DNA of 64,000 nucleotides from Nautilus pompilius (Eukaryota; Mollusca; Cephalopoda; Nautilida; Nautilidae), in NCBI GenBank assembly GCA_018389105.1, contig JACATO010000317.1:3939001-4003000 (forward strand), given 5' to 3'. The notes beneath the pieces were generated by a model. The model did not search any database. It was not told the DNA's origin and saw nothing but the letters and a program-made list of their open reading frames with translations. Below are positions 1 through 40,600 of this stretch, piece by piece. The first letter of the stretch is position 1. Each line of letters opens with the position of its first letter. A program made the position numbers and the translations under genes.

Positions 1-65
1 ATCCAACATGTTTTCTTTCCATTTCAAAATACTACCCATTTATCTTTAATCTTTAAAGGAATCAG
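1..65 (+). CDS. Kinase gene, partial exon (ectodomain)
   Basis: Open from the first base; reads IQHVFFPFQNTTHLSLIFKG. It ends ATCAG before GTAAGT with two spare bases, which pair with the single leading base of exon 4409-4517 to make Arg. LSLIFKG matches the hydrophobic strand plus 'Y-K-G-G' type turn of M6PR-like domains. The true exon start may be upstream of the window. Confidence 0.6.
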
Positions 66-3000
66 GTAAGTCATAAATTTCTCACTGAGGTTCTCATTTC
101 TGTGTATAAGACACTTACTTTATCTAAAACCTAAAACTGCTTTAAAATACTGTGACACTTTAGTATTATTGAATGAACAAAGTTATTGATTAAACGGGTT
201 CAAGTAAGATTGACTACGACTACATGCTTTTAAAACTATACATTCAATGCTTTCTGATGTACATTAAAATCCTTTATGTTAAATAATTTAAAAAAGAGTG
301 ACTATTTTAGTGTTGATCCCACATTAATATACCATTAAGCCCCATTTTTCTCCACAGTGATATATATTAAAAAAGTGTTTAATTCTCCTCAGTGCTAGAA
401 TAATTAAAATAATGTCACTATATCTGAAATCAAGCAACTTTGTTACAATGTATATATAGGTGCATCTAAAAAAATTAGAATATCATGGAAGAGTTCATTT
501 TTTCCCGTAATTTAATTCAAACAGTGAAACTTTCATATATTCTAGATTAATTACACATAAAGTGAAATATTTCAAGCCTTTATTTTTTGCTTTAATTTTG
601 ATGATTATGGCTTACAGCTCATGAAAATAAAAAATCCACTATCTCAAAATATTAGAATATTTCATAAGATCAATAAAAAAAAAAAGGATTTATAATATAG
701 AACTTTTCAGAAGTTCGACATTATGTTCATTTATGCACTCAGTACTTGGTTGGGGCTCCTTTTGCATGAATCTCTGCATCAATGCGATGTGGCATGGAGG
801 CGATTAGCCTGTGGCACTGTTGAGGTGTTATGGAAGCCCAGGTTGCTTTGATTAGCAGCCTTCAGCTCATCTGTATTGTTGGGTCTTCCTCTTGACAATG
901 AGGTTCAGGCCAGGTGAGTTGGCTGGCCAATCAAGCACAGTAATACCATGGTCAGCAAACCAGTTACTAGTAGTTTTGGCAATGTGGGCAGGTTCCAAGT
1001 CCTGCTGGAAAAGGAAATCAGCATCTCCATAAAGCTTGTCAGCAGATGGAAGCATGAAGTGCTCTAAAATCTCCTGGTAGACGGCTGTGTTGACTTTGGA
1101 CTTTATAAAACACAGTGGATGGCTGTGTTGACTTTGGACTTGATAAAACACAGTGGACGCAACACCAGCAGATGACATGGCACCCCAAATCATCACTGAC
1201 TGTGGAAACTTCACACTGGACTTCAAGCAACTTGGATTCTGTGCCCCTCCACTCTTCCTCCAGACTGTGGGATCTTGATTTCCAAATGAAATGCAAAATT
1301 TACTTTCATCTGAAAAGAGGACTTTTGACCACTGAGCAACCAACGGTCCAGTTTTTTTTCTCCTTAGCCCAGGTAAGATGCTTCTGACGTTGTCTCTGGT
1401 TCAGGAGTGGCTTGACACTAGGAATGCGATACTTGTAGCCCATTTCCTGGACATGTCTGTGCATGGTGGGTCTTGATGCACTGACTCCAGCCTCAGTCCA
1501 CTCCTTGTGAAGCTCCCCCAAGTTCTTGAATTGGCTTTGCTTGACAATTCTCTCAAGGCTGAGGTCATTCCTCTTGCTAGTGCACCTTTTCCTACCACAC
1601 TTTTCCCTTCCAGTCAACTTTCCATGAATATGCTTTGATACAGCATTCTGTGAACAGCCAGCCCTTTCAGCAATGACCTTCTGTGGCTTACCCTCTTTGT
1701 AGAGGGTGTCAGTGAGTGTCTTCTGGACAACTGTCAAGTCAGCAGTCTTCCCCATGATTGTGGTTGTGTACTGAACCAGACTGAGAGATTCATAGTATTT
1801 ATACTGCATTAATAGTGATTTATTCGAAATGGAATATTCTAATATTTTGAGATACGTTTTTTTTTTTTTAACTGTAGGCCATAATTATCAAAATTAAAAT
1901 TAAAAAATGCTTGAAACATTTTAGTTTACATGTAATGACTCTAGATTATATACAATTTTCACTTTCTGAAATAACTGACAAAAAATATTGAACTCTTCCA
2001 TGATATTCTAATTTTTTGAGATGCACCTGTATATTGCTTGCAATGTTGTAGTTAGAAATTTTTCTAGGGGAGGACAAACAGTTGAAATATTTTGAATACT
2101 AGGCACATGAATTAAGCATCATTAAACTTTTTAAAACATCTTGTTTAAGGTGTTTTATTCAGACATATAGGCTTTAAATGGCAAAATAATAATATTACAA
2201 ACAATTGCACAGTAAAAACTATAAACAAGTTTAATTTTTGAAGGAACCTAAAATTTTAAAAGTTTGTTTTTCACAAAGCATAGTTCTTCAGCAGCTGTGT
2301 TGAGGACATCAGTCTCTACGTTATGTTATTCAGACATAAGCCTGTGTGGACCAATGGCATGCTCACATATAGCTACCAACTAATTTTGATGCTGATCTGA
2401 TGACTTGCTTGAAAAAATGGCTTCAAGTATTCCAAACATACTCACAGTACATTATTTAGTTTTAGCAGTCCAGTTACCTTCATACACATTCAAGTGTTGT
2501 TATTTATTGTAATTTGTTATTCTTACAGTTCACATTTGCATTTTGAATTTGTAAATTATATACTGGTAATATTAATTGCTCATTATAGCTGCAGCATTAA
2601 ATGGATATTTTACTTTTTCATGTAAATAAGTTTATAAAGTGAAAAAATAAAAGACAGTAGTGACAAACAAGTAAATTACAAATAGAAATTTTTTAAGTTC
2701 CTTAAATTTTCTGCCCCCCCCATACTCTTTTATAACTACACTACTGGTTATTTGATAACAGGGTTGTTGTGGTAATACTCTGTGCTATTAAAGAAAATAG
2801 ATAGGTTTTCTACAGTGGTATTTGGGTTTACAGTGTAGAAATCTGACTGACTAAGAGATAATTATAGGGCAGTTTTATTGAAGTGCATTTAATTAAAATG
2901 TTGCATAAAACTGGGATCCTTGTTTTTACGTTTAAAAAAAATGAGATTTAATTTTTCTTTTTCTCTCAGACTAAAATCTCTTTGAGAGTTTTAATAATTG

Positions 3001-6000
3001 TCTATAGCCTTTTGAAATTGAATATTTTCTTATTAAATTGCAAATTCATTTATTTTATTTTTGAAAAATAGACAAAATAAATAGGTATGAAATAATAAAT
3101 GGTTATTGTTAAGTTTTATACATGAATATACTCTAGAGAAATCCTTGGATTTTATATTTTCATAAGAACTGTAGTTCTTTAAAATAAAGACAAAGGCAGT
3201 GATGGTCAAAATTATTGCATGTTGTTTTTAAACAAAATATTGACTTTTCTTGTATTTTTACTAAAAATGTTTTGTAACACAATAAAGCCCTTTAAACTTT
3301 ATTTTTATGTTCATAAGGTCTCTGTGTTAAACATATAATTAGAGAGTAATAAAGAAATACACATAACCGATACATGCTTTGCAGCATTGTTTTTAACTAA
3401 AATTTTTTATTTTAACAAAAGAAATGCATAAATAATAAATGAATAACAACTGAAAGCATAAACATTGTATTAATCAAAGTATAATTACACTTAAAACCAA
3501 AAAATAATTTTTCTGGGTGTTGCAATATTTTTGGCCATCAGTGTACTTATAAGATTAAAAACTAACAAACAAGGAAAAAATGAACAAAAAAAAAGCAAGG
3601 GTGAGCTGCAAAATTTTTAAATTTAAAAAGTGTACTGCCTGCTGATTTAAATAATTATAAGTAATTACAACTATCATGCCAGAATATATGCCAGATTAAA
3701 AAAAAAAGCAAATATACAGCAATCTTTTCATGAATACCTGTCCCATAATGAAAGACCTACTTCAGATGTTCTATTGATTATGTTCTTTATTTAAAACAGT
3801 ATTGATTATATATATTTTTGCAGGTAGTCAAGATACATAGATGACTGACTCAGTTTTTATCTTTTACACTGAATTTTATTTATTTTTTAGCTGGAATTTT
3901 GAAAAGTGATGTTAATAGTTCTACCCAGTACCTGAAAACTCATTTTTTAAAAATATTCTGTCAGTTTTAAATCTTATGATTGCAGATAAGCCCATATTCA
4001 TTGTGTTAAAGATTTAAAAAAAAAGAAAAGATAAAAGGATATGATAAACAGCTTCACATTTGTACATTCTTGGAAGCTCAACTTTGAGTTTGAACTGCAA
4101 TATTCATTACATATATTAAAGCATAGTTTTTCTACCTGATAAATACTTAATTAAGACCCTGGATTTATAAAATAGCAATAATGTAGTGCAGTCAACATGG
4201 AACTTGTAGACACATTCATTAGAAGTGATAACCCACATGAACTGTTAACTTTATATTGAATAAATTAGCTGCATTGTTACTTACTATAAATCCACAAACA
4301 AATTTTATAACAATATTGGATGTATTCTTTCTTCCGTGTTAAACTGAATTTAGAATGTTATGAAGCATTTTCTGCACATACCACAATAATTTCTTAAATT
4401 ATCTATAGGTCTCATCGACACAAACATACTTTCATTGCCTTGCTGTGTGATCAGAGTCGTCAGAAGCCAAATGAGGCTGAGTTCAAGATTCTCAATGATG
4501 AGAAAAGAGGAAATCTGGTAAAGGCAACTTTTATTATTTTATTTTAGTTTTTAAAAAAAGTTTTCATTCTTTTAATTCTCCATGGTGAAATTGTTTACTA
4601 TTGTATTGCCTTAGTAAAAGAAAGAAAAACAGGCATATATGGAGTCTATCATCAGTTTCTAGCTGGTGACAATTAATAAAATGTTCCCACATTGCAGTGG
4701 TATGGAAATGACATACTGTTTGACTTTAATAGAACTTAGTTGAAACCTAATCACTGAAAAAAACACTGCAACAGATTAAGCAAATCAACATTACACATGT
4801 GGTAATATTTAGAATGAAACAGTATGAGAGGATTGTCTATGATTAGCTTGGGTCAGCTCACACAGCATTGTATTGTGGGATTTTTTAAAAATTATCAGCA
4901 GACAATCTTGTTTTATATTCTCTCTATTCATACTTTAACATTTTTACTCGATATCATTTAGCAAAATTTAATTTATTATCATCAGAAAAAAAAATTATTT
5001 AATGTTCATTTGTTCATAAATGACCATCAGTTATTTCAAAATAGTAACATCTTTTTTAGGCCACACAAGTTAATCTTTCAACTTTCTCTTGTTGAATAGT
5101 TAAGACTTAGCATTAAATAATAATAAAATTAAGAAACTGTTAGAAGGTTTTGGATAAAAACATTGTTCTGGCTCTCAAATTTATAAAAGGGAGATAAAAA
5201 TGGTGAGATGGTTCCTTGAGGCAAGCGAGTGCATACAAATCTGCTTAGTAAAAGTTATGTTCACTTGCCATAGATTATTTAATAGCTAGCTATTTCTTCC
5301 TCTTACAGAAATGTTAAGAAATCCCCCTTTCACATTAATGTTTCTAGAAATTCATCAGACTAGTCATTATCTAATTTCAGTATGCTCATTTAAAGCACAA
5401 ATGCTCCTGCATAAGTGGATGCTTAAATCTAGATTGGAATGGTAAAAATGCATCAGGTATGTGAATTATTAATTTGACTTAACTAAACATGTATATTTAT
5501 TTTAAAAAAATTGGCTCTAAGAAAGTTTACTCTGGTGGAACTGATATTATAACCTAAACTCTTAATATTGTATGTTGATATTTCCTGAGTTTTATCCAGA
5601 TAATCATTAGCAATGGTGCACACCTGCAAGTTAAAGCTGATAGAGAAAAGTTTAGGGAGTTTTCAGGCATGAATCATAAAACAAAATAATTTTCAAAAGA
5701 AAGAAACAAGACTCTCTGGATATTGGGAAAATATCTTGTGTTTCAGAACAGAATTGTTGTGGTTAGGCTGAATCATCTTGGCTTATTGTGCTGTTCTTTC
5801 AGTGCATGGATAAAGTTAGTACTTACCATCAAACCTTTGCAACCTATTTATTTTAAATTTATTTCTGTACCCTTTATAAAAAAGATAATTTTTAATGTTT
5901 GCTTTGTTTCCCATGGTTATTATAAAAATTTTTTCAGACATTTTGAAAAATGCTACAGTCTCGGAAGGAGGTGAAGAAGAAGAAGATAACACCCAAGTGA

Positions 6001-9000
6001 TGATGATGATCATCTCTGTCAATTTGGGCTTGTTTATGTTTGCAATGCTCATCGGTGGGCTGTGCTACAAAAAGCGAACTTCACTCAAGATTTACCAAAA
6101 ACTTCCAGGTGAGCATTAAAGAAGGATATTTGGGAATTCAAACAAATATGGTAAAACTTGCAGTTTGGTAGAAATAAGATGTTTGTCTTTGAGGAATGGT
6201 GGGTTTTCCACCACAATATCAGTAATGGAAACAGCTAATAGTTCCACTATAGTTTGGAAATTCTTCTTCATTACCTCATCAAATCATCACAATGACTGTT
6301 GTTTTGCATGCAAATGTTGGTGTTGATTTTTATTTGAAACTGAAATTAATTGTCAAATGCTTTGTTGTCTTGCTGATTTCTTACCAGCTCTCTAAGTTAC
6401 TGAACTTAGATAACAGAGTTAAGTTTTCTAATCTCTCTGTCTGTTATCCAAATGTAATATTGTTAAAAAACAAAAAAAATAAATAAAATAATTAACAAGT
6501 AAAATAAAATAGCATTATAAAAATAAGTTTTATAAAGGTAAAACTTGTTACTTTATTGAAATTTTCTGAACAGCAAACATAAAAAGACTATTTTTAGGAT
6601 AACTATAATATCTTGGTTGGACAGTAATATAGACATTTTTTAATGATGATAAGGAAACCATGAATAGGAAATGTATAAAATTGTACTGTTTATCATGTCA
6701 GCTAGTTAGAGAAAATTAAAGTATTTTTCAATCTTTTGTTAGTTGGTTGCATAGCTGCAGACAAGTTTGTTAAATTTAGCTTTTTGTTATTTATTATTTA
6801 CTTATGACATTGAAATAGTGTTTGGATAAATAATTCAGTATTTTCTAAAAGCATTTGATTCAGTCATTATTGTAAATTTTGAAGAAAAATCATACACAGT
6901 ATAATTAAAACAACAGCAACAGCAGCTTAAAAATTGTTTGGAATTTAAACATTTATAAAACATTAAGAAACAAAGCAAATCTTCCATTAGTTTTTACCTG
7001 AATTGAAGGAATGACAACAAATGTTAAAAGCAAAATGTATCTAAACATTATTGATAAAACAAATAATTTAGGTATTTTCTAAGCACATTTTTAAAAAATG
7101 ATTTGTCAATCAGTTTACATTTGATATCAAGGTTGTTTTGTTTACATGTTATTTTGGAAAATAATATCAGTTGATTATTTTTACTCTCAAAAGAGATGTT
7201 TTAATTGGTACTGAACAAATTGGGCTTTTGTAGAAAATGGTTTTCGTATGGCATTTATTTACTGCTAAGAATCTCTGCAGAAGTAAATGACTTTGACATA
7301 AGTCACCTCACTTTAAACACTGATGTACTTGATTAAAATAATAAAATAGATAAATAAATAGAATAAAAGCTTTCAGTGCATTAAAAAAATGTTGTATGCT
7401 AGTTTTGTTTCATTTTTTTTTTTCAGTTCTGTACTTTCTGTTGACAAGAACAACACTTCTAAAGATTTATAATGGGTTTATCCTTAGTGCAGTATGTAAG
7501 CACTCAACTAAGAGTATTGCTGAGTTAAAATACTGCCAGCTTTTTTATTAGTGGTATGGGAACCCAGTGGACTGCCATATTGACTCAGAAGGGCAGCTGA
7601 TTTAAAAAAAAATTAGTTGTGGCTAGAAATTAAGCAGCACAATTTTTTTTTGTTTTTTGTGCATGCATGTGATTGATTGATTGATTGATTGATACTACTA
7701 CTTCCTTCATCATCATGACAACCATTGTCTACTATCGGTCTCATTGAACAAAAAGTAATATTTTCTTCATATCAAATGATCAACTAAAAAGATCACCTTT
7801 ATATTTCTTGTCTTACATTTAATGTCACATAATATCACAAAATTTTTTTTTTTTTTGGTTTCTTTGTGATAATCTTCATTTCATTTTTAAAGACTAACTT
7901 TTCATTTAGTATGTTCTGCTTGGCTGGGGACAGAACAGAGAGTTCCATGAGAAAGTAAGGGGAAAGTTAAATCCTGTAATGACCACTCATATGAAATCTT
8001 TCCTTTTCCACAATTGTCTGCTTTTCCACTTTTGCATTTAAAAAAATTTTTGCATGTCATAAACATCTAGAATATAAAACCAGAGGGATTTCTGTTGGGA
8101 GTTACTGTGGCTTGTTTCTTGCTCACTACTATTGTTGTTTATATTAGAAAAGTTTGTATCATTCACTAGGGATTGGCATTTCACCACTTCTCCAAGTTCA
8201 AAGTTTGGTGTTAATTTAATCCACCGTCTTATTTAGCAGAGAAGTTGAGATTTTTCATTGATATTGCTTAGAACATGTAATATGGAGCTTACCAATCACT
8301 GGAAAAGAAATGTTGTATGCATATGTGTATATGTATGTGTGTGTGTGGGTGGGTGTTTTCAGAGTCCATCTTTAAAGGCATTTTTCAAACCCCCCCCTCT
8401 TCTCTGGATGGTGTGTATTTCTGCAGGCTTTAAAATTATTCAGCTTTTTCTTTTTTATTATTTGGAAAATGTTGCTACATACAGACTGCATGTCTGCAGC
8501 TAGTGTGATGGATAAACGTGCCACAGATGGATGAGTGGTAAAAAGGTAGAAAGTAATACTTTTTTTTAGTTGACATAAATGATTTAACAAGTATTTTAAA
8601 AATAACAGCAAAAAAGATGAGCCAACTTTATTGAAAAAATATTAGAAACATGACTGACAAGGCAAGTAATACTACTTACTGCCACTTGATTTTCTTATGC
8701 ATTTGACAAAGTTCTCCCCCCCCCCTAGGTATTCATTCTCAGTCCAGTACTGCAGGTATGCCTCCTGGAGACAGATCTTCCAACATGAAAAGGGCATTTC
8801 GAGACTATGAACCAACACCAGTTTCTCCATCCAAGAGAAAAGTATTGACTGTGCTGGACAACTGTGTAATCCCTGCTACAGATATTCAGACAGGCCACAG
8901 GTAACAAATTAGCTCTTTAGATGCAAAGCTATAAATGTGTCTCACTTGCCATTTTTTGTATTTTATATCTTTTCTTTTATGCTTCAGTATAATAGGCTCA

Positions 9001-9078
9001 CTGCTTTAGCCACATTTCATTTAATATTTCAACTTTGCAATACAAAACTATTTATTTAAAAATATTTTCTACCATTTA

Positions 9079-9112
<34 letters not shown>

Positions 9113-12100
9113 TTAGTTTCTGTTATGTAGAATGACACAAAGTGAATCACATTCAAAAGTTTCTAAATATTTTAGTACTATTTGTTATTTTCCCTGCTCA
9201 GACTTGGTGGAGGAATATTTGCTGACACATACGTAGGCCAGTGGAAGGAGGTGAAGGTTGCTGTTAAATATCTCACGCTCAACATTCACCAAAACCAACT
9301 GACTGCTGTCACTATTGAATGGATGAAAAATGAAGTGAAATATTTTAGGTAAATCACTTTTTAAAAAAGAAAATTCAAGGGGTATGAATTCATAAGTTAT
9401 AAATGTTTCAAGTTTATTATTTTAATTAACAAATGATACAGAAGTAATGTATTTACAATATTGAAATCATAATCTTCCCTATTTAACGTTACCCTAAAAT
9501 TATCTCCCTTTAGTTGTACTTTGCCAGTAAAATCAAGGTGGCGAATGAGTGACAATGAAAACTGGAACTGATGTTGAGTGTTGAGGTTAATCAGAGTGCT
9601 GATGGTAAGAGGTTAGTATTTAGTCTTGGGTTAAGTTGAAGATTTATGCAAATTCCAGTGGGGATCACTCAGCTCTTAGCTTTTTACAGCTGGCCTAAAG
9701 AGAAAGAAATTAATGTAAATGAGTTTTAATTAAAAAAGAAATAAATAAAATATTAAAGCTAATCCTGTTCAGCAACTAAAAGCCATTGTTTACTTTATAT
9801 TTTTAAAATGAAGAGTAAGCAAGTGGTAGATTTGGGAAAAAATAACTACATGTATTCATGCAGACAAACAGAATGTTTCAAACTATTTCTTAGTGTATTG
9901 TCAAGTTAAAGAAACAACACTAAACAAAAGAAATCATAGGTTATATATTTAAATGTTTCCTATTTAGATCTTTAGTCTTTTTCAACGAAGAATCACATAT
10001 AAAAAATTCAAAACTGAGTTAAGATGCCAATAGATACTGGTGGAATTTTGTTTAACTGCTGCTTAAAATTAAATTTTGTAGATTTAATTTTCTTAGATTG
10101 ACTGTGGGCTGGTCATGAATTTTCATGAAATGTTTGTAAAGTGAAGCAAACCTAAATAATTTGAGAATTTTGCAATAATTAGATCAAATAAATTTTAAAT
10201 ATAAACAAATAATACTTGGCCTCTATTCTTATTTAAAATAAGAAATATAATTTTTCTTTGCTCTCTACAACAGTCTCAAGAGTATCTTTGATTCTAATGC
10301 AGTTTCACCAGATTTTTTTGGCCACTGAGTATGATCAGTTATCATAGACTGCAAGCACAATTTTTGTCATTCTTATATTTTATTACTATCTTATTATGAT
10401 ATTTGTCTTTTTTTCTAGTTTATTTTTATATCATTTTTATTTCTTAATATTTATTTATTTATTTTATATTTTAGCCGTCTGAGACATCAGAACATTGTGT
10501 CAGTTCTTGGGCTTTGTCTTGAAATGAAACACCCCTGTGTTATAGTGGAATATGTAGATGGAATATCAGTCAAAGAATACCTGAAGTCAAACTTCAACAT
10601 AATTACCTGGCCTCAGAGAGCACGCATTGTAAGTATGTTATAATTAGACAAAATAAAATTTTAAAATGTGCACTGATCTTCAGTTTCATCTTTCCCCTAA
10701 ATAATTAATGTTTATTTCAGTGTTTACAAGCAGCAGATGGAATGGCATTTTTACACTCATCCAAGCCACCTGTTTTTCATAGGGATATCAGGTGTGCAAA
10801 CATATTCATTACAGAACAAGACATAGTAAAAGTAAGTTTGCTTTTTAAAATTTAAATTTTATTGCAAGGGTTTTTTTTTTTTTTATCAATAAATATTTTG
10901 CACATATATCTGAAGTTTACTTGCTAATTTATCTAATTAGAAGAAATGAAATAATATTATTTTATGCACAGATTCAGTATTTTTAAGGTTTCAAAATAAA
11001 CTTTTACAGATTGCAGATTTTGGTGTAACCAAATTACTTCAGCCTGTACGTGAAGAGTGCACAAAAGATGATTGCGTTTGTAAGTAATTTCATTTTGTCT
11101 GTTCTAGAATTTTTACGTGTTATTTCCACATCTCTTTTCCCTGAATAAAACTTTTCATATTCATAATGTTTTTTAAAATAAATTTAACATATTGCACAAA
11201 ACTGAAACTATACAAATGTAAAAAAATATTTGCCACTTATGAGTTATTTCGCCTTTAGCATTACAAAAACTGAAAAGTGTATAGAAAATCAGTTTTTTTT
11301 TTCCAGTGGAATAAAAGATAATTTTTTTAATAATAATAGTAATCATCAAACTTTATTTTCTATGTATGTAGAATATAAAGTTTGAGTTTGTCAATTTGTA
11401 TGTTTCATGGTTATTTTTCAACATTAGAATAAGTTATTTCCCTTTTAATGAATTTTTTTAATATCACAACTTTAAAATATTCTGATTTAATGTATTTTGG
11501 GTTATTTATTTATTTTAAATTTCTTTATTTTAGTTATTTTTCCATTAAAAATGTATGGGTTAGCTGCAAAGACAGTACTCACAGATAATTCCTCAGACGG
11601 CCTATCTTTATGTCCATGGATATGTTGTAAAAAATTGCTGGTGAAATATTAAAAGTGTTTTGCAATAACAACTTAATTTCTTTGCTATCAGGGAAAAGCT
11701 CTTTCAGAATTTTCATAGTAGTTGTTTAAAGTAAATTGAAAAAAAACAGTTATTTGGCTTATTTAGCTATATGAAAATTTAAAAAAAATTGTTATGTCAT
11801 AGAGATCAAATTTTTCACAATTACTATAACTTTTATGGAACTTTTTACTTCAGGTCAAAAGTCATTCAGTGCATGTTCCTCTTTAATTCGATGGACAGCT
11901 CCTGAAGTGCTCCATAACCCCACAGCACAGGAAGGTGGCCAGTTATACACACTGAGTTCTGATGTGTATTCATTTGGCATGGTCATGTGGGAGCTAATGG
12001 TTAATGAAGATCCTTTTGGTGATTTTGTTACAGAGGCTGAGGTTCACATTTTAAAATCTACTTTTCAATTTGAATTTGTAACTTTATCAATTTATTTTTA

Positions 12101-12270
12101 AAATTTTTAAAATCAACATTATCCTTTAAAATTTTTTTTAAGAACACTAACATTAAGTCATTCTCAGAATGGATGATGGTCAGAATTCCATCATGAACCA
12201 AATAAATACTCACTAAAATATTCTTTATTTTGTAAAACTAAGGCAAAATGTTGTAGAGTGCACACACACA

Positions 12271-12317
<47 letters not shown>

Positions 12318-15300
12318 CGTTATGGAATAAACCTAGATGTTGTCATAAGTTTTGTCTCCTTGACATGGTATCTTAGCAGATATTCATCTTCTGATAATCA
12401 AAAAATATCTTGAATGAAACACAAATTAAACCTGCCAAGCTTTTATAAACCAATTTTCCTTTAATAAGTATAGTTGTACTAGCCTGGCTGAAATACCATT
12501 AGTTTTGCCAGGTTTCATTTGAACATATCTAATATCTTTAATATTCTTGGATGTACATCTTTGTTGGTATAAATGTGGAATGATGGATTGTGAAGAATTT
12601 AATCTTTCTGGGTGATAGCTGCTGCTTTCAGATCATGCTCTTTACTACAACTGATTAAGTGCCCCAAAATTTTGTATTTATTCTGTATCTTTAAAACTGA
12701 CACTGGAATTAGTTGCCAATGACTGAAGTATAGTTGAATGTATACAACCAATGGTACATCTTATATTTTTTGTTTTGCAGTGTCATTTACGATTTAACCT
12801 ATCACAATTAAAAAAAAATGCACCATACTACTACTAGCAACACAAAACAACACTGGTTATAATCTTGCTAGAATATTCTACAGACACTGATTTTAATTGC
12901 AGGTTGTGGAACTGGTGAAACATGGTGGCCGTCCTGCCTTTCCACACAACATCAAACTCATGCCAGAGTATGTGGAACTCTTAAAATTATGCTGGGATTC
13001 AAATCCTCAAAAAAGACCAAAGTTCAAAGAGGTAAAAAGAAATAAAGAAAGTACTGTTTTTTTAATACCTGTCCAGCTTTAATGTGTTTGTGCAAAATTG
13101 TTATATTCTATGAAAAGTTTTATAATTTAAGTGTGGTTTGCATAAATATAACTAGTATAGTGCTGCTGCTCACTTTAGGTTAGTTAAAAAAAAACTAGTT
13201 TATAATAAACTGCTGATTTTGTAGTCTCCTTAGTTGGATGGGGGAGAAAAAAGGAATTTTTTGTCACAAATACTAGATATACTAATGTAAAACGGAAATA
13301 CTGCAAAACAGAAAGTTTTGGTGGTGTCAATTATAGAAATGAGAGTATTCATTTCACAAGTTATTTCCTGTTGTCATCATCAAACTTAGTCTTGAATCTT
13401 GGTTTTCATATATTTATATTAAATTTAATATGCTGCAGTTTCTGTTGTTTTGTGCTTGGTGTCACTATTTTTTGATAATTATTTTATTGTAATATATCGT
13501 TACCATCTGTCTTTAGTCTTTTGAGCCACTGGGACATCTGCCCAGTTAGGATATTTAAATGTTCCTATCAATTAACAGGTGGATCTAGATCTTACTTCCC
13601 CCATTGCTAGTGTACTTAGTGTGTGGGGTTCCAGAGCCTTGTAAGTTTCTTCTTTTATTTGTATTTTGTAATTGTTATGCCCAGTAGATTTTCTAGCTGA
13701 TCTTATGCTCTTCTATTATGATTTTTTTTCTTTTTAAGACCTTTTCATTTTCATCTCACCAATGAATTTCTTACTACAGCCACACAAGATAGAGTAAATT
13801 GTACCCTTGGTAGACAATGCATCATTTTGCTTTGTGGTCAGAAGTACTAACCATTCTTTTTATATTTGTTGAAGACATCCTGAAAGTGAAGCACGGTATA
13901 TTGTTGTTAGGCAGTAGGTTGTAACAAATTACATGATACTTTCAGTGTTCAAGCTGGTTCTAGTCTGCAACTCACTACTATGATGATTAAAACCATTAAA
14001 GCTAACTAGCATGTTTTCAGCCTGGACTGGATTTTCTGACGATATCTACAAAAATTAGTAGTTTTCTATATTATAATACACTACATCTGGTTGTGGGGTA
14101 TTAGTTTCTTTTGAAGATGTTTTTCCAAGACTCTGGCTCTTAGTGGATTTATTACTTTTGTGCATCTTCTGGAGACTATATAGGTGCATGTTTACTGTGC
14201 CGTTTCATGTCTCCTTGCTTGTTTAGCACCCCCCTAACATTTAAAAGTGTTACTTTCATGACCCGCTCAAAAAATGGTGATTCAACTTTTGAAACTGTAT
14301 TGTTGGCTTAAAGTATCTAACAGATTCATCTGATTTGGGTCTGCAAAGTTTCATTTTAGTCCCCTTTTCAGTGGATCTCTTGCTTCCATCTTACTGTTTT
14401 AGTTATTATTTTAGACATTTTCTATTCCTGTAATGACTTGACCCCAGTACTGCTGGATCAAACACATTACCTAAATCGACTAACAACTATGCAAACTATC
14501 ATTATAGGATAAAATGCAGGCAGGGGAAAAAAGAAATATTTTTTTAAAAAAAAAGACAAATGCATTACAAAGGATAATTGAAAATGATTATTATGTGTAC
14601 TTACACCAGCTAGCCACATTATTGAGACCTATGCTTAATAATAGGTTGGGGTATCTTTTGTCTAATCCTGAAGGTGCTGGAATATCTCCTGAGAAATATT
14701 TTCCCCATTTGATAATTTATATTGCACATGATGGTAAATGCATCTTTCAAGTTTATATTACAGATGAATTGGATTGAGATTTGGGGATTGTACAAGGCAT
14801 GGGGAATGTCTGAAATCTTTATCATGTTCTTTAAATCATGAATGCACAATATGGTACGATAGATGGGAGCATTGTCTTCTCGGAAGTAGCTATCCCCATC
14901 AGGGTACATTTGAAACATCACTGGAAGCACTTGATCAGAAATGATGCTGAGATAAGCTCTGGCATTCATTCTGCCCTCTATTAGGAACCAAGGGCCCAGG
15001 GTATTCCAACAAAACATGCCCCAAGCCATGACTCCACTACCAGAGGTCTGGAAAGTTGGCATTATGCAAGATGGGTTGAGTTATTTGTGTAACTTTCTTC
15101 AGATATGTATTTTCCTATTTCTGCATAAATGGGTAAAGCATGACTCATCAGACCACATCACTTTTTGCCAGTCTTTCTTAGTCCAAAGTCTGTGCTTCTT
15201 ACACCATGGAGTTGATAAGTGTTTATGCAATGATCAACCACCATAGTCCATTCATTGCAGCATTCTTTGCAAGGTATGGCTGGAGTCTGTAGATTTTCTG

Positions 15301-16488
15301 CATTGAATGTCTCTCATTTGGTATATTGTTTGATGATGGTTGGACTTTATTATCCTGTCTGAGCACCTTTCTTTATTCTTGTGTAAGCTCAAATGACCAA
15401 TGTCTTGGAGCAGCCTACCAACAAAACTTTCTTGTCCACTGTGGCACCTGCTAGATATGCAACCACTATCATGAATGCTGTAATTTCTTTGTCTCTCCTC
15501 ATATTTGTTAGACTGACTGACAGTGTGTTTATCAAACTCACATATGGTACTGCAAAGGTCATATGTCATATCCTTTTTTCAACCAAACTGCAGCTCAGGT
15601 CAAGCCCAAGTCAGAAAGGTCTTAATAAAGTGGCCAGCCAGTGTATGTGGTTGTCAACATACCTTAGTTCCATTTTTTAAATAAAAGTTTGAATTTGTTC
15701 ACTTTATTAAAATTGTTTTTGCACAAATACAAATTGTTATTTTAGATAAGAATTTACTATAAACTAATTCAGTGATTTATGGTTTATTAAAAAAGAAATT
15801 AAATTATTAACTTTTCAGATTGCTTTTTAAACATTAGAAATATTTAAACAAAATACCTCAACTTTGAATAGCTAAATCTTGAAGATATCACCAGCTTTTG
15901 AAACATTTAAAATGCATGACAGAAATAATACCTGGAGTAAGAGTTAAGATTACTCAAATAATTTTCTCATGTGATTGGTGTATTTACTTATTCATTTAGT
16001 TGGTGAAGGGAAATAATACGGAAATTTTTTTATTGAGATTTAGTATATTTCATAAATAAAAATATGGTTTGGGGATAATTAGTCTGTAACTGTCCATGTG
16101 CTATTAAATATCTAGGAAGCAATTAAATAATCACCAAAACCTAGCATCTTAGTAACTGAAAAGACAAATTTAAAAGAAGTTTAACAAAAAGAAAAGTTGT
16201 CCCCAGATAAAGCACCAAGCTAACTGCTGTCATACCAGGAAGATAATCCAGCAGGATATCTGTTGATAAATTGTTAAAAATATATATTTATTAAAATGAA
16301 AGAAAGTTTATTGTTCTAGGAAGAAAAATAAGTTTGTTTTCTTTATTTATATTTAGTTTGTGCTAATTCTTTTTTTTAAAATCCAGGTTGCTGTAAAGTG
16401 TAAAGAAGTCTTGCACCATTCTCGACCATTTCAGAAAAGTATCAGGAAGTTACTGCAAAGCACAGAGCAGCAAGAGTCAGCAGATTGA
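1..16488 (+). CDS. Receptor-like protein kinase with M6PR/ATG27-like ectodomain (3' part of gene, 12 exons)
   Basis: Exons <1-65, 4409-4517, 5381-5456, 5938-6108, 8729-8900, 9202-9348, 10475-10628, 10721-10831, 11010-11079, 11854-12041, 12903-13031 and 16387-16488 join in phase into 497 residues plus stop; the N terminus lies outside the window. Residues 1-83 resemble the end of a mannose-6-phosphate-receptor/ATG27 fold: LSLIFKG, then FIALLCD, then GNLYAHLKHKCSC. An acidic stalk, one membrane helix (about 104-126) and a tail with YQKL (136-139) follow. The kinase domain starts near 199: glycine loop GGGIFA (third Gly is Ala), Lys220 in VAVK, Glu242 in helix C, HRDIRCAN (318-325), DFG (338-340), WTAPE (372-376), SDVYSFG and a terminal RPKF. 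All catalytic residues are present. HRDIRCAN, RWTAPE and CWDSNPQKRP favour the tyrosine-kinase or TKL groups. Probably a membrane signalling receptor; ligand unknown. The kinase call is firm, the ectodomain call is by fold pattern only. Confidence 0.85.
457..2029 (-). mobile_element. Tc1-family DNA transposon, nearly full length, inactive
   Basis: Terminal inverted repeats share GGTGCATCT and AAAAATTAGAATATCATGG and are flanked by TA target duplications (455-456 and 2030-2031). The length of about 1.57 kb is normal for Tc1. The reverse-strand transposase is read in two overlapping frames: an N-terminal paired-like DNA-binding part (about 1809-1306) and the DDE catalytic part (about 1343-740). 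Visible catalytic landmarks are FSDESKF and FQQDLEPAH, then DWPANSPGLN. The block that should follow (usually PIENLWG, with the third acidic residue) is missing, and the text resumes at VKRK. A 37-bp tandem duplication lies at 1083-1157. The C-terminal QCHRLIASMP-type motif survives in another frame. Lies antisense in an intron of the kinase gene. Confidence 0.93.
1083..1157. repeat. 37-bp tandem duplication inside the Tc1 transposase
   Basis: Two adjacent copies of a unit containing TTGACTTTGGACTT and ATAAAACACAGTGGA, differing at about one base. Tc1 transposases have one copy, so this looks like local slippage after insertion. Confidence 0.8.
4409..4517 (+). CDS. Kinase gene exon (ectodomain, M6PR-like core)
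   Basis: Flanked by TATAG and GTAAAG. In phase it reads SHRHKHTFIALLCDQ and goes on to FKILNDEKRGNL. Positively charged residues, then a hydrophobic strand ending in Cys-Asp, is the pattern seen before the conserved Cys of M6PR/ATG27 domains. Confidence 0.7.
5381..5456 (+). CDS. Kinase gene exon (Cys-rich end of ectodomain)
   Basis: Starts after TAATTTCAG and reads YAHLKHKCSCISGC, then LNLDWNGKNAS. Two donors 15 bases apart keep the same phase: GTAAAA at 5442 and the better CAG|GTATGT at 5457. I chose the second; the first would drop five residues. The Y-x-F/L...CxC pattern matches the closing strand of M6PR/ATG27 folds. A possible N-glycosylation site NAS lies here. Confidence 0.65.
5938..6108 (+). 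CDS. Kinase gene exon (acidic stalk, transmembrane helix, sorting motif)
   Basis: Acceptor TTTTTTCAG, donor CCAG|GTGAGC. Encodes a sequon (NAT), the acidic stretch EGGEEEEDN, a helix of about 23 hydrophobic residues (VMMMIISVNLGLFMFAMLIG) and the basic stop-transfer CYKKR. KIYQKLP follows about ten residues inside the membrane. Confidence 0.85.
8729..8900 (+). CDS. Kinase gene exon (juxtamembrane region)
   Basis: Acceptor is a C-rich tract ending CTAG; donor CACAG|GTAAC. Encodes IHSQSSTAGMPPGDRSSNMK, then a serine/proline-rich link with EPTPVSPSKRK, and ends ATDIQTGH just before the glycine loop. No domain recognised; the serine-proline sites could be phosphorylated. Confidence 0.85.
9202..9348 (+). 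CDS. Kinase gene exon (glycine loop, catalytic Lys, helix C)
   Basis: Acceptor CTGCTCAG, donor TTTAG|GTAAAT. Encodes LGGGIFADTYVGQW, KVAVKYL with the ATP-anchoring lysine, and EWMKNEVKYF with the helix-C glutamate. The third glycine of the loop is alanine, which many active kinases tolerate. Confidence 0.93.
10475..10628 (+). CDS. Kinase gene exon (beta4-hinge-helix D)
   Basis: Acceptor TTTTAG, donor ATT|GTAAGT. Encodes RLRHQNIVSVLGLCLEMKHP, then VIVEYVDGISVKEYL covering the hinge, typical of tyrosine/TKL kinases. Confidence 0.93.
10721..10831 (+). CDS. Kinase gene exon (catalytic loop)
   Basis: Acceptor TTATTTCAG, donor AAA|GTAAGT. Encodes DGMAFLHSSKPPVFHRDIRC then ANIF, containing the catalytic HRD and the metal-binding Asn of HRDxxxxN. 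Confidence 0.95.
11010..11079 (+). CDS. Kinase gene exon (DFG and start of activation loop)
   Basis: Acceptor TTTTACAG, donor GTTT|GTAAGT. Encodes IADFGVTKLLQPVREECTKD then DCV. This part of the activation loop has cysteines and threonines but no tyrosine. Confidence 0.93.
11854..12041 (+). CDS. Kinase gene exon (P+1 loop, helix F)
   Basis: Acceptor CTTCAG. Encodes SFSACSSLIRWTAPEVLHN, then LYTLSSDVYSFGMVMWELMV. The donor chosen, GAG|GTTCAC, is weak but joins EAE to VVELVKHGG exactly as the kinase consensus needs. Reading on to a GTAACT further down would insert about 15 residues into a conserved helix. Confidence 0.88.
12261..12315. repeat. (CA)n microsatellite
   Basis: About 27 CA units with one interruption, in a kinase-gene intron. 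Confidence 0.97.
12903..13031 (+). CDS. Kinase gene exon (C-lobe)
   Basis: Acceptor AATTGCAG, donor GAG|GTAAAA. Encodes VVELVKHGGRPAFPHNIKLM, then LLKLCWDSNPQKRPKFKE: the conserved C-lobe CW...RP motif with its structural arginine. Confidence 0.93.
13500..14510 (-). other. Intron segment, possible LINE relic
   Basis: Reverse translation near 14,275-14,190 gives VKVTLLNVRGVLNKQGDMKR, which recalls the start of the endonuclease domain of non-LTR retrotransposons (NVRGVxNK). Neighbouring frames are broken and no further domain is legible, so this is only a suggestion. Confidence 0.25.
14604..15643 (-). mobile_element. Tc1-like DNA transposon, decayed
   Basis: Inverted ends: left GCTAGCCACATTATTGAGAC, right (complement) GCTGGCCACTTTATTAAGAC, next to TA on both sides (14,602-14,603 and 15,644-15,645). 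The reverse-strand transposase piece reads SGSGVMAWGMFCWNTLGPWF, then EGRMNARAYLSIISDQVLP and YFREDNAPIYRT: the middle of a Tc1 catalytic domain with its second aspartate. The last third and the N terminus are shifted or lost. About 1.04 kb, in the last intron of the kinase gene. Confidence 0.88.
16387..16488 (+). CDS. Kinase gene last exon
   Basis: Acceptor AAATCCAG. Encodes VAVKCKEVLHHSRPFQKSIR, then KLLQSTEQQESAD and TGA. It ends the kinase C-lobe and adds only a short tail. Confidence 0.9.
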   Translation, partial: VAVKCKEVLHHSRPFQKSIRKLLQSTEQQESAD

Positions 16489-16580: not shown

Positions 16581-16586
16581 AATAAA
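16581..16586 (+). promoter_or_regulatory. Candidate poly(A) signal of kinase gene
   Basis: AATAAA, 93 bases after the stop codon. Other AATAAA sites occur further down in this AT-rich flank, so the real end is uncertain. Confidence 0.35.
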
Positions 16587-34600: not shown

Positions 34601-37600
34601 CTAAAGCAAGTAGTTTTTAAATATAGTTTAAAAAGTAAAAAAATTAATTTTTTGTACATTTGTTGAAATTTTTTTTCCCTGTCTCAAACATTTCTTTTAA
34701 TGGAAAAGATTTCCTGCAGAACAAAAATTGTATTATGGAAAGTAAAAAAAAAACAAAAATGTACGTATTCAATATGATATTTACATTTAATTTAAAGTTT
34801 ATTGTTTGACTTAGCAAATATCAAATAAAATTTAGACTTTAAGTTGTTAGATATGTTTAAGACTTAAAATGGCAATTTTTATATCGATTGATCAAGAATA
34901 AGGAGAAATGTTGAAATTTTATAAAGTTTGATATTTTAAAATGTATTTTTGCATTGATTGTGATCAAATTTATAATATGAAGTGAGGGGAAAATTCTTTT
35001 TCAGATTTGAGAGAAGGAAACTTCTTGAACATTATCAATCTATAGAGGCTGATTACAGAACCAAATATCAATCCTTTCAGTTAGCAAAGGTTTTAGAAAC
35101 ACAGATGCAGAAGTTATCTGTTGTGGAAGCTGGACTAAACAATTTGAAGAATGAAAGAGCAGTACTACAGAAAAAAATTAGTGATATGTCTGGTAAGATT
35201 ACATTGATGGCATAAGAGAAATTCAACTATCTATCTGTCAATTTAGTGTTGGTTAAAAATTAACTTTTGAAGACAATTCCTTTAATATTAAACTTTGAAT
35301 CAGGATTTAAAACAGTGAAAAGCCATTATGAATGAACAATAAATATTTGTATGTGTGTCACATGTTATTTTAATATTAAAGAAATCATATTTGTAGTAAA
35401 TAAAAGAATAGCAATTATCCTTTTTTTATTTTAAGGGAAAAGTGTCCTGAATTTTGCAGAACTTCAGAAATTTATCATTGAAATGTATCTTTTTAAAAAT
35501 TTGTTATGCATATATAATGAATGTATTTGTAAATTGTTGCAGCTATAATTCTGTATGTTATTTGCAGTGACTTATAAAATAAATGTTGTGTATATTTTAC
35601 AAAGAATATAAAGAATTTCAGAAAACAAATTATATTCGAACATATGAACTGATAAGAAAAACTGATATTAGTAACATTATAAATTGAATTTTGTTTTGGC
35701 ATGACAATTTTTAAATCAAGCAATTATTATTACAAAAATCAGTATTTTAATTGTTATAGAGTAATTTTTATGGTGTGTGTGTGTGTGTGTATGTGTGTGT
35801 GTGTGATTATTATCAAAATACAGAAAAATCAAAGTAGAAGTCAGTCAGTTAAAACATTGTTCTGAACAATTTGATATTTTTCATGATCTTGTGGCCATTA
35901 TGAAAAAAGGTGAAGATGCCTAAAAAGTCTCTATTTATTTAAAGTTAGAGAAAAGGAAAATAGTGTACCTAATGGTGTTAAAGTAACATGTTTGATGTGA
36001 GATTTCAGATTATATTTGCATTTTTTATTTCCTTTCTGAAAGATGTGTTGCATAAGCTCTAATATAATTATGTATACAACTGAGAATGATTAACATTTGA
36101 TATACAATACTGTAATAAAAATGAATGCAAGAAAAAAAAAACTTGTAATGATTTCTTGCTCATCTTTAGCAGGTTGTTTAGCTAAAAAGTGTTTACAAAT
36201 GTCACTCATTTTACATAATTATCTAATGTGTTGCATAAAGTGCAGATGTACTTTAGTAACCTTCTAGTCCTTACTTCATCCTCTATGTAGAATATACAAG
36301 TACACCTGTAGATGTTTTAAGTAGAAATGGGTTTATATACTAGACAGTAAAATTATGTTCTTTGTATACATTTAAAAAGAAATTGTACTAATTTTTGTGT
36401 GTGTGTGAAACTTTTATTATTAACAGCATACGGTTCTGACAACAATTAACTGGAGCAAGCTTGAATCATAGTAAAGGAAAAACCTTGCATGTAATAATAA
36501 TAATAATCTTTTACAATAAATTAATGCGAAGTGATGTAAAATGTTGCTTTTACATTTTTTGTGAATAATAATTTTAGATACAAAACTGTATTATTGTTTA
36601 TTTAAAAAAAAATTCAACAATGATTGGTTCCAATCTTTCATAGCTATTCTTTACTTTATAATTTTGAATGTGGAGATTTTTGTTTATAGTAAGCATATTC
36701 AAAATACTCTGTTATTAGTTTTCAGTTTGTTCTTTGTTGACTTCCATAATTTTCTCGTCTTGTATATATCAGGTTTAGACAAGTGATGTGAACTTGTATT
36801 CAACAAATCACCATAACTTTTAAAAATCTTTTAACAGTTTGTACTAACCTTTGTTTTATTTATTTTTATGGCACATTTTGCTAAATTCAGTTCTGATTAT
36901 TGATAAATAATAGCTTGCTTTTTATTTTCATGTTGCTGTATATTTATTATAGTACAGTTTCTTGAAGATGTCATCAGTGACTTAGATACAGGTTAAATTG
37001 CAGATGTTATTCATTTTTATTTTTGCAAATCATTTGATACAGTTCCACTAAGATGAATGGTAAAACAAATGGAAAATCATTGGCACAGGTGAACAGCTTT
37101 TATTGTGGAATGGATATTGTTTAAATAACAGAATTCAGGGCTGTACTAGACAGTAATATGCCTGAGATTTACTTCAGGACTCGGTTTTTGGGCATATTTT
37201 CTTTTATGTTGATACTGAATTCTAACAATATTATGAAATTTTCAGTTGTTACAAAAATATATGGTAGAGTTAACAGTATGAAATGTAATCCAAAATATTG
37301 CTTAGTGGGCTGGTTGCACAATGGCACATGAACTTTGTTGTTTCTAAGTGCAAGTGTCTTAGTATTAGTCAGGTTGAAGTGAATTACTCATGCTAGACTG
37401 AACACTGGTCAACAAAATTAAATGTATTATACTCATTATAAATGCAAACCAACTTTTTAAACTAATTTTTCATGCTGATTTCAAAATTTCACTCCATTTG
37501 TATGCAGCATGTATCAGTTTTTCAGTAGATACATGCAAATATTTACATATTTGTATATATGAAATCATTAACGTAATAAATGACATATTATTTTTAGAAA

Positions 37601-40600
37601 GTAAATGAGTTTATTGAGTTAAAAATCATCACTATCATTCTACAAAGAGTGAATACACAAAAATGGGTCAGACAAAACAGACAAAGTTAGAACAACAGAG
37701 TTAGAAACATTGTGATTTGGATTTCCTGCGGTGTTCCTGATCTGGTTGATCACGGTAAAGTGTCCAGCAGTAGTCAGCCAGCATACTGTCATTCCAGAAG
37801 CCTTGGTACTGTTTCTCCATATCACTAATGTCCTGGTGAAATCTTTCACCATGTTCATCAGACACTGCTCCAAGGTTATCTGCGAAGAAATCCAGATGGG
37901 AGTCCAAGAAGTGAACTTTCAGTGACATGCGACAACCCATTGCTGAGTAACATTTCAGAAGATTCTTGATGCCATCCTTATAGTCCATTGCCTTCTTGTT
38001 GCCCAAGAAATTCTCACAGATCCAATTGAAAGCATTCCAGGCAGGCAGTTCCAGTTCATCCAGTGTTGACTTGAAGTTGACATCTTTGAGTACTTCTCTA
38101 ATTTGGGGTCCGACAAAGATACCCTCTTTCAACTTCGCCTGTGTGATTTTGGGAAACTTTTCTACAATATACTCAAACCCTCTGGCATTTCTCTTCCCTA
38201 GTGTCTTTACAAACTGTTTCATCAGTCCAAGCTTTATGTGCAAAGGAGGCAATAGGACATTACATGGATCTACAAGAGGTGTATTCTTGATGCTAGACAG
38301 TCCTGGCTGGTATGATGTTCTTGTCTGCCAGTTTGATTCCGAATAATGTCTGTCAGTTGCCCGACTATCCCATAGACACAAGAAACAACAGTATTTTGTG
38401 AAACCTGACTGCATTCCCATTAACATTCCAATGACTTTTAAATCTCCACATATTTTCCATGAGTATCTTTCATAGGCAATGGCATGAAGTAAAAGTTCCA
38501 TATTCTCATGGTCTTTCAGCTTCCTCCATATCTTTGGAATGGCAAAAGGCATGGACTTCTTCCTCTTATTGAACCAGTCACGTTAACCATTTGAGCAAGC
38601 TGAGCCAATAAAATGTGGTGCCCATAACTTGTCCTGATCTCCAAGAGGACAGTCAAAGTATAGCTTATAAATCTTCTTGATCTCTGGTGTTATTGTACGT
38701 TTTTGAGCTTTCACAATAAATTGTCCACAGACATAACAAAACACATCAGGAGGATTTCTACACTGTCTTGACATTGTTAACACTGTAAAACAAGTAAGGA
38801 AATAGATACAGTTATACTTATATTGAATTTGAGATGATGAAATATTTTGTCAGACCAATTATGACTGGACAATTTGAGATGTTGAAATACCTATTTCATC
38901 AGACAAAACTTGATTGGTTAATTTAAGATTATGAAATATTGCATCTGAACTATGCAGCAATGAATAGTGTATTTTAAAGGTATGTTTCCACGATGTAAAT
39001 GAAATACATGCATACACATCATTAATTGGAATTTCTATATAATGCATGAGCTAAAACCAAAAAAGTTTCTCATCTTGAAAACTGTACGTGATGTCAAAAA
39101 ACTAATTGTATATTTGAAATCAGCATTAAAAACTACACTAAGTACACCTTGACATATGCTTGATGAAAAATACTTGTTGACCAGTGTAATAGATAAAGTA
39201 GCTGAAAAAAAGGATTTTGGAATTGTAGGTATTATATGTTTCTCAAAGCCAATGGGCAGGAAATATTAATTTGTACTATACTCAGTAAAACTTGAGGTGT
39301 TCTGGTGGTTCTGTAGAAATTGATAAGATCTCTTTTAGAGCATGTGGTTCTGTTGCAGTCATATGTCAAGGAAAAAGATATATTGGAATAGTACATGCAA
39401 AATATTTATGTAGAAAAGTTTTAAAGACTTCAATTACCTAGTTTGTCTTACAGGCATCTTTATGAGTTATGACTGAAGTTTTCAAAACTTAATACAGGTT
39501 GAACCTTCCTCTCTAATCCATCACCCTTGAGACCTGATCGGTTTTGGACCATAGAATTTTACAAATGCAGGGGTGGTCAATATATTACTGTTCCAATACA
39601 CCCTAAATAAGCCTACAGCTAGTCTAGGTGTATCAGATCTTTTCATAACATTAAGTGTTTGTGTTGTTACACAATTTTAATATATTGGCATGAGGAAATA
39701 AGTAGATAAAGCATAAAAAACAATAATATGAAAAAGAAAGAGATAAAAAGTTATAATGATAAATTATCATTTACTCGTCTAAAATGATGCCTGAATTTCA
39801 CTCCTAAAGTGATATGATAATACAGAGTAATTGATGACACACATTGGTATGTGCCTTGTGAGAGTTTTACAATGTGCCCTTTTCCGATTTATGCAACAAT
39901 TCCACCTTTTGCTGTATCAATATTAACACGTGCTTAAGCTTAGCAGCATTACCAACATTTCCCCTGCTTACTGGTCTCTTACAGACATATTTAGGGGTAA
40001 CTTAGAGCTAAGTAACAGCACAACTAAGAGCCAGGACTTCCAGATGTAAACACTTTAAGATCATAAGAACTTGGTTCCACCCTTCCCAGTGACCATCTGG
40101 AAAACTAAAATCATGATGGACCACAAAATGCCTGATTAGAGAGGTTCAACCTGTAACAGATCATATGCAACTAGAAGACACATACAAGATTTATAAACAT
40201 TTATTAGTCATTAGGAAACTGTCTTTTAGTAATTATGTAGTGTTGGTTTGGAATGATTTTTCCCTACCAGTTAATGGAATATTTGTCCAATTGGCATTTC
40301 TTTGAGTATGGGAATAAATTCTGAAAACCAAACCTTTTGATGCATTATTATGTGCTGATTTTGTACATAGGTATTCTGTATCTAGTCATTGTTGTGATTT
40401 GAGGAATACTTTTTTATTTTAAACATAAATTTTAAAATATGGTGAAAAAAATATTGTTTTATGTATAATCTTTCAAAAATAGCATTATTGATGAATGCCA
40501 TGATTACTTAGTCTTGTAGGAACTACAAAAAAAATATAATTATCCACTCATGCACACACTTATCTTAATTTTGAAACTTAGATACTTATAGCACAGTGTA

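Follow-up and report, generated by a model that had tools for sequence, protein, structure and literature searches.

The window, i.e., the whole stretch of 64,000 nucleotides that was analyzed (C308:3939001-4003000), harbors a real receptor-kinase gene, predicted from genomic sequence with its exons joined in phase. Its product shows the features of a receptor-type kinase: a leader, an ectodomain, one helix and a competent-looking kinase, all in a single reading frame. Judged from its sequence, the protein may be a single-pass receptor kinase of type I topology whose ectodomain is MRH/CIMR-like but highly divergent, with a ligand other than mannose-6-phosphate (M6P) and probable endocytosis; the chances of this reading as a whole are regarded as evenly balanced.

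First, the gene model was completed. The preliminary description had claimed twelve exons in the window, and all of these were present on the + strand, with every junction in frame and GT...AG borders in 11 of the 11 introns between them. Their joined product of 497 aa ends in a TGA stop at 16486-16488 and contains the peptides that had been quoted (LSLIFKG...FIALLCD). Exons 1 and 2 and the 5' half of exon 3 lie upstream of the window, where they were invisible to that description. Their recovery, which it had proposed, was achieved with 40 kb of upstream DNA from the same genome and resulted in a model of 14 exons and 629 residues. The features are as follows (positions without a contig are those of the window).

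C308:3932524-3932744, + strand: exon 1, start codon and hydrophobic leader (only CpG-rich bin; donor picked by eye)
C308:3935003-3935111, + strand: exon 2, RFVTVFNGWNFSFNPCSAFNEPENPHVGFGDGCHHVS (splice score, phase and open frame)
1..65 (whole exon C308:3938935-3939065), + strand: exon 3, 3' half in the window, ectodomain ...IQHVFFPFQNTTHLSLIFKGIR (acceptor 66 bases upstream of position 1; donor gtaagt; frame open)
4409..4517, + strand: exon 4, ectodomain SHRHKHTFIALLCD...GNL
5381..5456, + strand: exon 5, end of the ectodomain YAHLKHKCSCISGCLNLDWNGKNAS
5938..6108, + strand: exon 6, acidic stalk, transmembrane helix and YQKL motif (hydropathy and motif positions)
8729..8900, + strand: exon 7, juxtamembrane region to the kinase start
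9202..9348, + strand: exon 8, G-loop, VAVK and alpha-C Glu (Pfam match)
10475..10628, + strand: exon 9, kinase N-lobe/hinge (Pfam match)
10721..10831, + strand: exon 10, catalytic loop HRDIRCAN (Pfam match)
11010..11079, + strand: exon 11, DFG and start of the activation segment (Pfam match)
11854..12041, + strand: exon 12, activation segment, APE and DVYSFG (Pfam match; weak donor, GAG/gttcac)
12903..13031, + strand: exon 13, kinase C-lobe (Pfam match)
16387..16488, + strand: exon 14, C-terminal tail and TGA stop
16581..16586, + strand: AATAAA hexamer resembling a polyadenylation signal

The start codon in exon 1 is preceded by an in-frame stop two codons earlier, and the frame opens at -6482. 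Across 27 bins of one kilobase, which started 9 kb upstream of the window and extended to its position 18000, CpG observed/expected was 1.06 in the bin of exon 1 and stayed at 0.00-0.39 in the remaining 26. The strong CpG depletion around the gene, with one sharp island, suggests heavy DNA methylation. Since the phase 2 donor of exon 1 does not fit the phase 0 start of exon 3, an extra exon was sought between them. The scan rested on the assumption of a single exon (20-219 bases) bounded by the donor of exon 1 picked by eye and the acceptor of exon 3. Splice score, phase and an open frame left 13 candidates, of which exon 2 ranked first (9.0 versus 7.2 for the next). In 11 of the 14 exons, the chosen frame had better codon scores than either of the other forward frames (the exceptions were exons 1, 2 and 14); since the margin was thin in several exons, this test was given no weight.

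The order in the protein is leader, Cys-rich ectodomain of about 150 residues, acidic stalk, helix, basic stop-transfer, YQKL and kinase. Windows of 19 residues with a hydropathy above 1.6 were confined to two segments, the leader at residues 2-36 and the helix at residues 234-259. The latter, as the sole hydrophobic segment apart from the leader, bears out the earlier claim of one membrane helix, and all four N-glycosylation sequons are located before it. YQKL lies eight residues past the helix. Motifs of the YxxPhi type just after a helix are common in endocytic and lysosomal proteins. Since shuffling of the juxtamembrane tail yielded a YxxPhi motif within its first 18 residues in 9% of cases, YQKL was taken as a mere hint of sorting.

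Second, the copy number and the literature were considered. When the genome (727,640,739 bases) was searched and the best candidates were scored, the ectodomain hit four places, all of them exons of the gene itself. Of the 14 places found with the kinase, eight were its own exons and six were other kinases of 23-31% identity, named by eye as ROR (L016), MuSK (L020), MOS, MLK, a receptor guanylate cyclase and a Ser/Thr-type kinase (L024). Thus, the gene was found once in this genome. It is a good possibility, falling somewhat short of an even chance, that it belongs to a conventional family of invertebrate receptor kinases that has already been catalogued, with orthologues annotated in eukaryote databases and only the annotation missing here. 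This would be in line with the oyster, for which PMC4883820 gives 40 TKL kinases, four of them in families of their own; unplaced TKL kinases are hence known in molluscs. Against this explanation, no MRH-kinase combination was described among the listed matches of open-access papers. The word 'mannose' is absent from the main texts of PMC12716839, PMC8662651 and PMC4883820, and the review PMC6651758 mentions the M6P receptor twice. PMC8662651 treats tyrosine kinases (TKs) as a clade separate from TKL and the ectodomains of receptor tyrosine kinases (RTKs) as shuffled, and PMC12716839 describes GPCR-TKL fusions in choanoflagellates.

Third, the ectodomain was compared with M6P-receptor homology (MRH) domains. 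The preliminary description had called it M6PR/ATG27-like; the order of landmarks (C...L..L...F.FNxC...C...VC...G...L.L.F.G...T.I.L.CD), which is that of MRH domains and of CI-MPR/IGF2R, and a shuffle-tested profile score speak for this likeness but stop short of establishing family membership. In the Pfam search that had been proposed, hmmscan, whose filters remove most matches above E 0.1, listed no family for the completed ectodomain. NCBIfam gave no family either, and phmmer gave no PDB chain up to E 10. In the genome, the CIMR model (PF00878) matched 13 places, all on C353, and the Man-6-P_recep model (PF02157) two, both on C633, i.e., none at the gene in the window. None of the eight places of the ATG27 model (PF09451) lay on C308, and no match to the ectodomain was listed. 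The 13 CIMR places all fall in the animal's own CI-MPR gene (C353:931666-970574, - strand; L035-L047), and two of its exons, used together as a PDB query, matched CI-MPR at 2.3e-160. The two loci on C633 (L001 and L002), on opposite strands, correspond to C-terminal stretches of the CD-MPR model (positions 170-213 and 173-209 of 254). Matches of the partial ectodomain below the Pfam threshold (NCU-G1, 0.098; DUF1573, 0.19 and 0.024) were set aside since the completed domain had no Pfam match at all, and PDB matches to SidC at E ~1 were taken as chance.

Three MRH profile variants were tried in all. One of 12 rows combined ten PDB domains with two fragments of the animal's CI-MPR. On it, the ectodomain scored 8.6 bits and its reversed sequence -0.6; a score at least as high as that of the ectodomain was reached by 19 of 20,000 shuffles and by 11 of 20,000 shuffles that kept the cysteine positions. 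After the addition of ten further segments of the animal's CI-MPR, it scored 10.2 bits, with 10 and 7 of 20,000, respectively. With the first profile of five sequences, about 96 of 20,000 shuffles outranked it. In leave-one-out comparisons, the ten PDB MRH domains reached 39.2-107.6 bits, versus 5.6-10.0 for the ectodomain on the same ten profiles. The hhalign local probability was 0.5% (five-sequence profile), and the global score was reached by 10 of 300 shuffles (12-row profile). Exon 2 had been chosen without regard to MRH, and of the 13 candidates it gave the highest MRH score (8.6 bits, versus 7.6 for the next and 5.7 with no exon). Six of the eight usual MRH cysteines are claimed. Four are placed by the profile (NPC, GDGC, VCK and LLC), whose alignment ends ahead of the last strand and the last cysteine, and two, the N-terminal C52 and the last cysteine (HKC), were matched by eye. 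The missing pair is also absent from CI-MPR domain 5 and from domain L037 of the animal's own CI-MPR. Taken together, the MRH resemblance is suggestive, with shuffle odds of about 1 in 1,000, and stays short of membership.

The ectodomain may instead have no kinship with M6P receptors and be simply a small, Cys-rich beta domain, in which case the kinase receptor would be real and the likeness a chance spacing of strands and cysteines. The missing Pfam and PDB matches, scores far below those of true MRH members and the weak hhalign result fit this explanation, and MRH was tested at all because the preliminary description had proposed it. The shuffle controls on the two larger profiles and the exon picked independently of MRH, which lifts the score most, argue against chance. 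This explanation is held to be possible rather than probable.

The preliminary description had also suggested glycan sensing. M6P-binding MRH lectins contact M6P through Gln, Arg, Glu and Tyr. In the ectodomain, the position of the Gln contact is Lys (VCKF; profile alignments), and so is that of the Arg contact, counted eight before the conserved cysteine. The Glu and Tyr positions fall beyond the aligned part, and the Tyr can be matched by eye (NLYAHL). With Lys in place of both Gln and Arg, two of the four contacts, the sequence speaks against classical sugar sensing, and canonical recognition of M6P by the ectodomain appears unlikely.

Fourth, the kinase domain was analyzed. Pfam PF07714 matched residues 194-466 of the 497-aa product with 3.1e-55. 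The catalytic residues claimed earlier are all present, i.e., K352 (beta3, VAVK), E374 (alpha-C), D452 (HRD), N457 (catalytic loop), D470 (DFG) and APE at 506-508 (full-length numbering); the G-loop departs from the usual form by an Ala in place of the third glycine (GGGIFADTYVG). The phylogeny against TK and TKL that had been called for was built from 15 rows (six TK, five TKL, others and the query), nine of them entered by hand and the MLK row partial. It placed the query kinase outside the clade of the six TKs, with a support of 97/93, and gave it no firm place among the five TKL rows and others. In the AU test, neither a grouping with the TKs (p 0.297) nor one with RIPK2 (0.35) was rejected. 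Thus, the label 'tyrosine-kinase-like' was fair, with a position as sister to the TKs statistically tolerated. On this sequence evidence, the kinase appears to lie near the TK/TKL border, outside the six tyrosine kinases compared.

If the kinase were a true tyrosine kinase, the protein would be an RTK with an unusual ectodomain. In favor of this, HRDIRCAN resembles HRDLRAAN of Src and has no Lys where four of the five TKL rows carry one, ABL1 and SRC are the nearest rows by path, an EGFR entry and a Src-Abl ancestor are the top two PDB matches of phmmer, and the AU test does not reject a grouping of the query with the TKs. Against it stand the exclusion from the six-TK clade, DVYSFG where all six TK rows have DVW, the lack of a Tyr between DFG and APE, which all six TK rows possess, and a pairwise score that is highest, within the set, for RIPK2. 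DVYSFG, the missing Tyr and the RIPK2 score point towards TKL instead. Overall, a true tyrosine kinase appears unlikely. A more specific TKL reading, also rather unlikely, would be an animal receptor kinase on the TKL side with a repurposed M6P-receptor fold, i.e., a sorting receptor turned signaling receptor that reports cargo or ligand at the endosome or surface by phosphorylation.

For a type I receptor kinase with a divergent MRH-like ectodomain, the following mode of action is proposed. The ectodomain would be a very divergent beta-barrel of the MRH/CIMR type that has lost one disulphide pair and retains six of the eight cysteines. Its ligand, a protein or a glycan other than M6P, would be bound at the cell surface or inside the lumen of endosomes. 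Clustering would bring kinase domains together, which would then phosphorylate one another and downstream targets. Given the lack of a Tyr in the activation segment, the target residues would probably be Ser/Thr. YQKL may recruit clathrin adaptors and thereby mediate uptake into endosomes.

Parts of this architecture are known from other systems. CI-MPR is likewise a type I membrane protein, and its domain 5 lacks the same cysteine pair, with six of eight cysteines claimed for the query. CI-MPR has fifteen domains; the query differs by its single domain, a sequence far under the family scores, Lys at the M6P Gln and Arg positions, and the kinase that it carries. CD-MPR and ATG27 have a single MRH-type ectodomain, one helix and short tails with sorting motifs and without enzymes. 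The query shares the single ectodomain, the one helix and, with YQKL, a possible sorting motif in the tail, but has no PF02157 or PF09451 match. TGF-beta receptors, i.e., TKL receptor Ser/Thr kinases, resemble it as animal type I receptors with a kinase on the TKL side. They possess a three-finger ectodomain and a GS box, and Pfam lists no such ectodomain in the query. RTKs such as ROR (L016) and MuSK (L020) of the same genome, named by eye, share the succession of leader, ectodomain, one helix and cytosolic kinase, whereas the query lies outside the six-TK clade, lacks the Tyr of the activation segment and has DVY rather than DVW.

It is very improbable that the gene model fuses a kinase gene with a separate neighbor that encodes the ectodomain (exons 1-5): although the exon joins are known from genomic sequence alone and the intron between exons 3 and 4 spans about 4.3 kb, all 13 junctions are in frame, the helix is located in the linking exon 6, there is a single CpG island with a single leader-like start, and the ectodomain exons alone would have neither stop nor anchor.

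If the fold is true, a lysosomal sorting-receptor fold would be coupled directly to an enzyme, which opens the question of a dedicated kinase that senses endolysosomal cargo. If the TKL-side reading is true, the protein would be a second kind of animal TKL receptor besides the TGF-beta receptors. Even with another fold, an animal receptor kinase outside the compared TKs, with an ectodomain claimed by no family model, merits an orthologue search.

Further elements were observed in the window and elsewhere in the genome. The intron that separates exons 3 and 4 contains a Tc1-type transposon (about 480-2020, limits by eye), whose transposase is split over two overlapping frames (1306-1884 and 867-1400, - strand), with Pfam matches to PF01498 (6.6e-10) and to PF13358 (3.9e-5, under its cut-off). 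By eye, a Tc1-like transposase frame is located in the last intron of the gene (14619-15080, - strand) and a hAT-like one downstream (48624-49730, + strand); Pfam gave nothing for the frames 14619-15080 and 48624-49058. The region 34976-52895 (+ strand) contains long open frames at 34976, 45768, 50926 and 52641 without a Pfam match, which are perhaps exons of one neighboring gene. Outside the window, a 903-residue open frame at L019 (C1346:217055-217870, - strand) looks, by eye, like a receptor guanylate cyclase with an ectodomain resembling phosphate-binding proteins.
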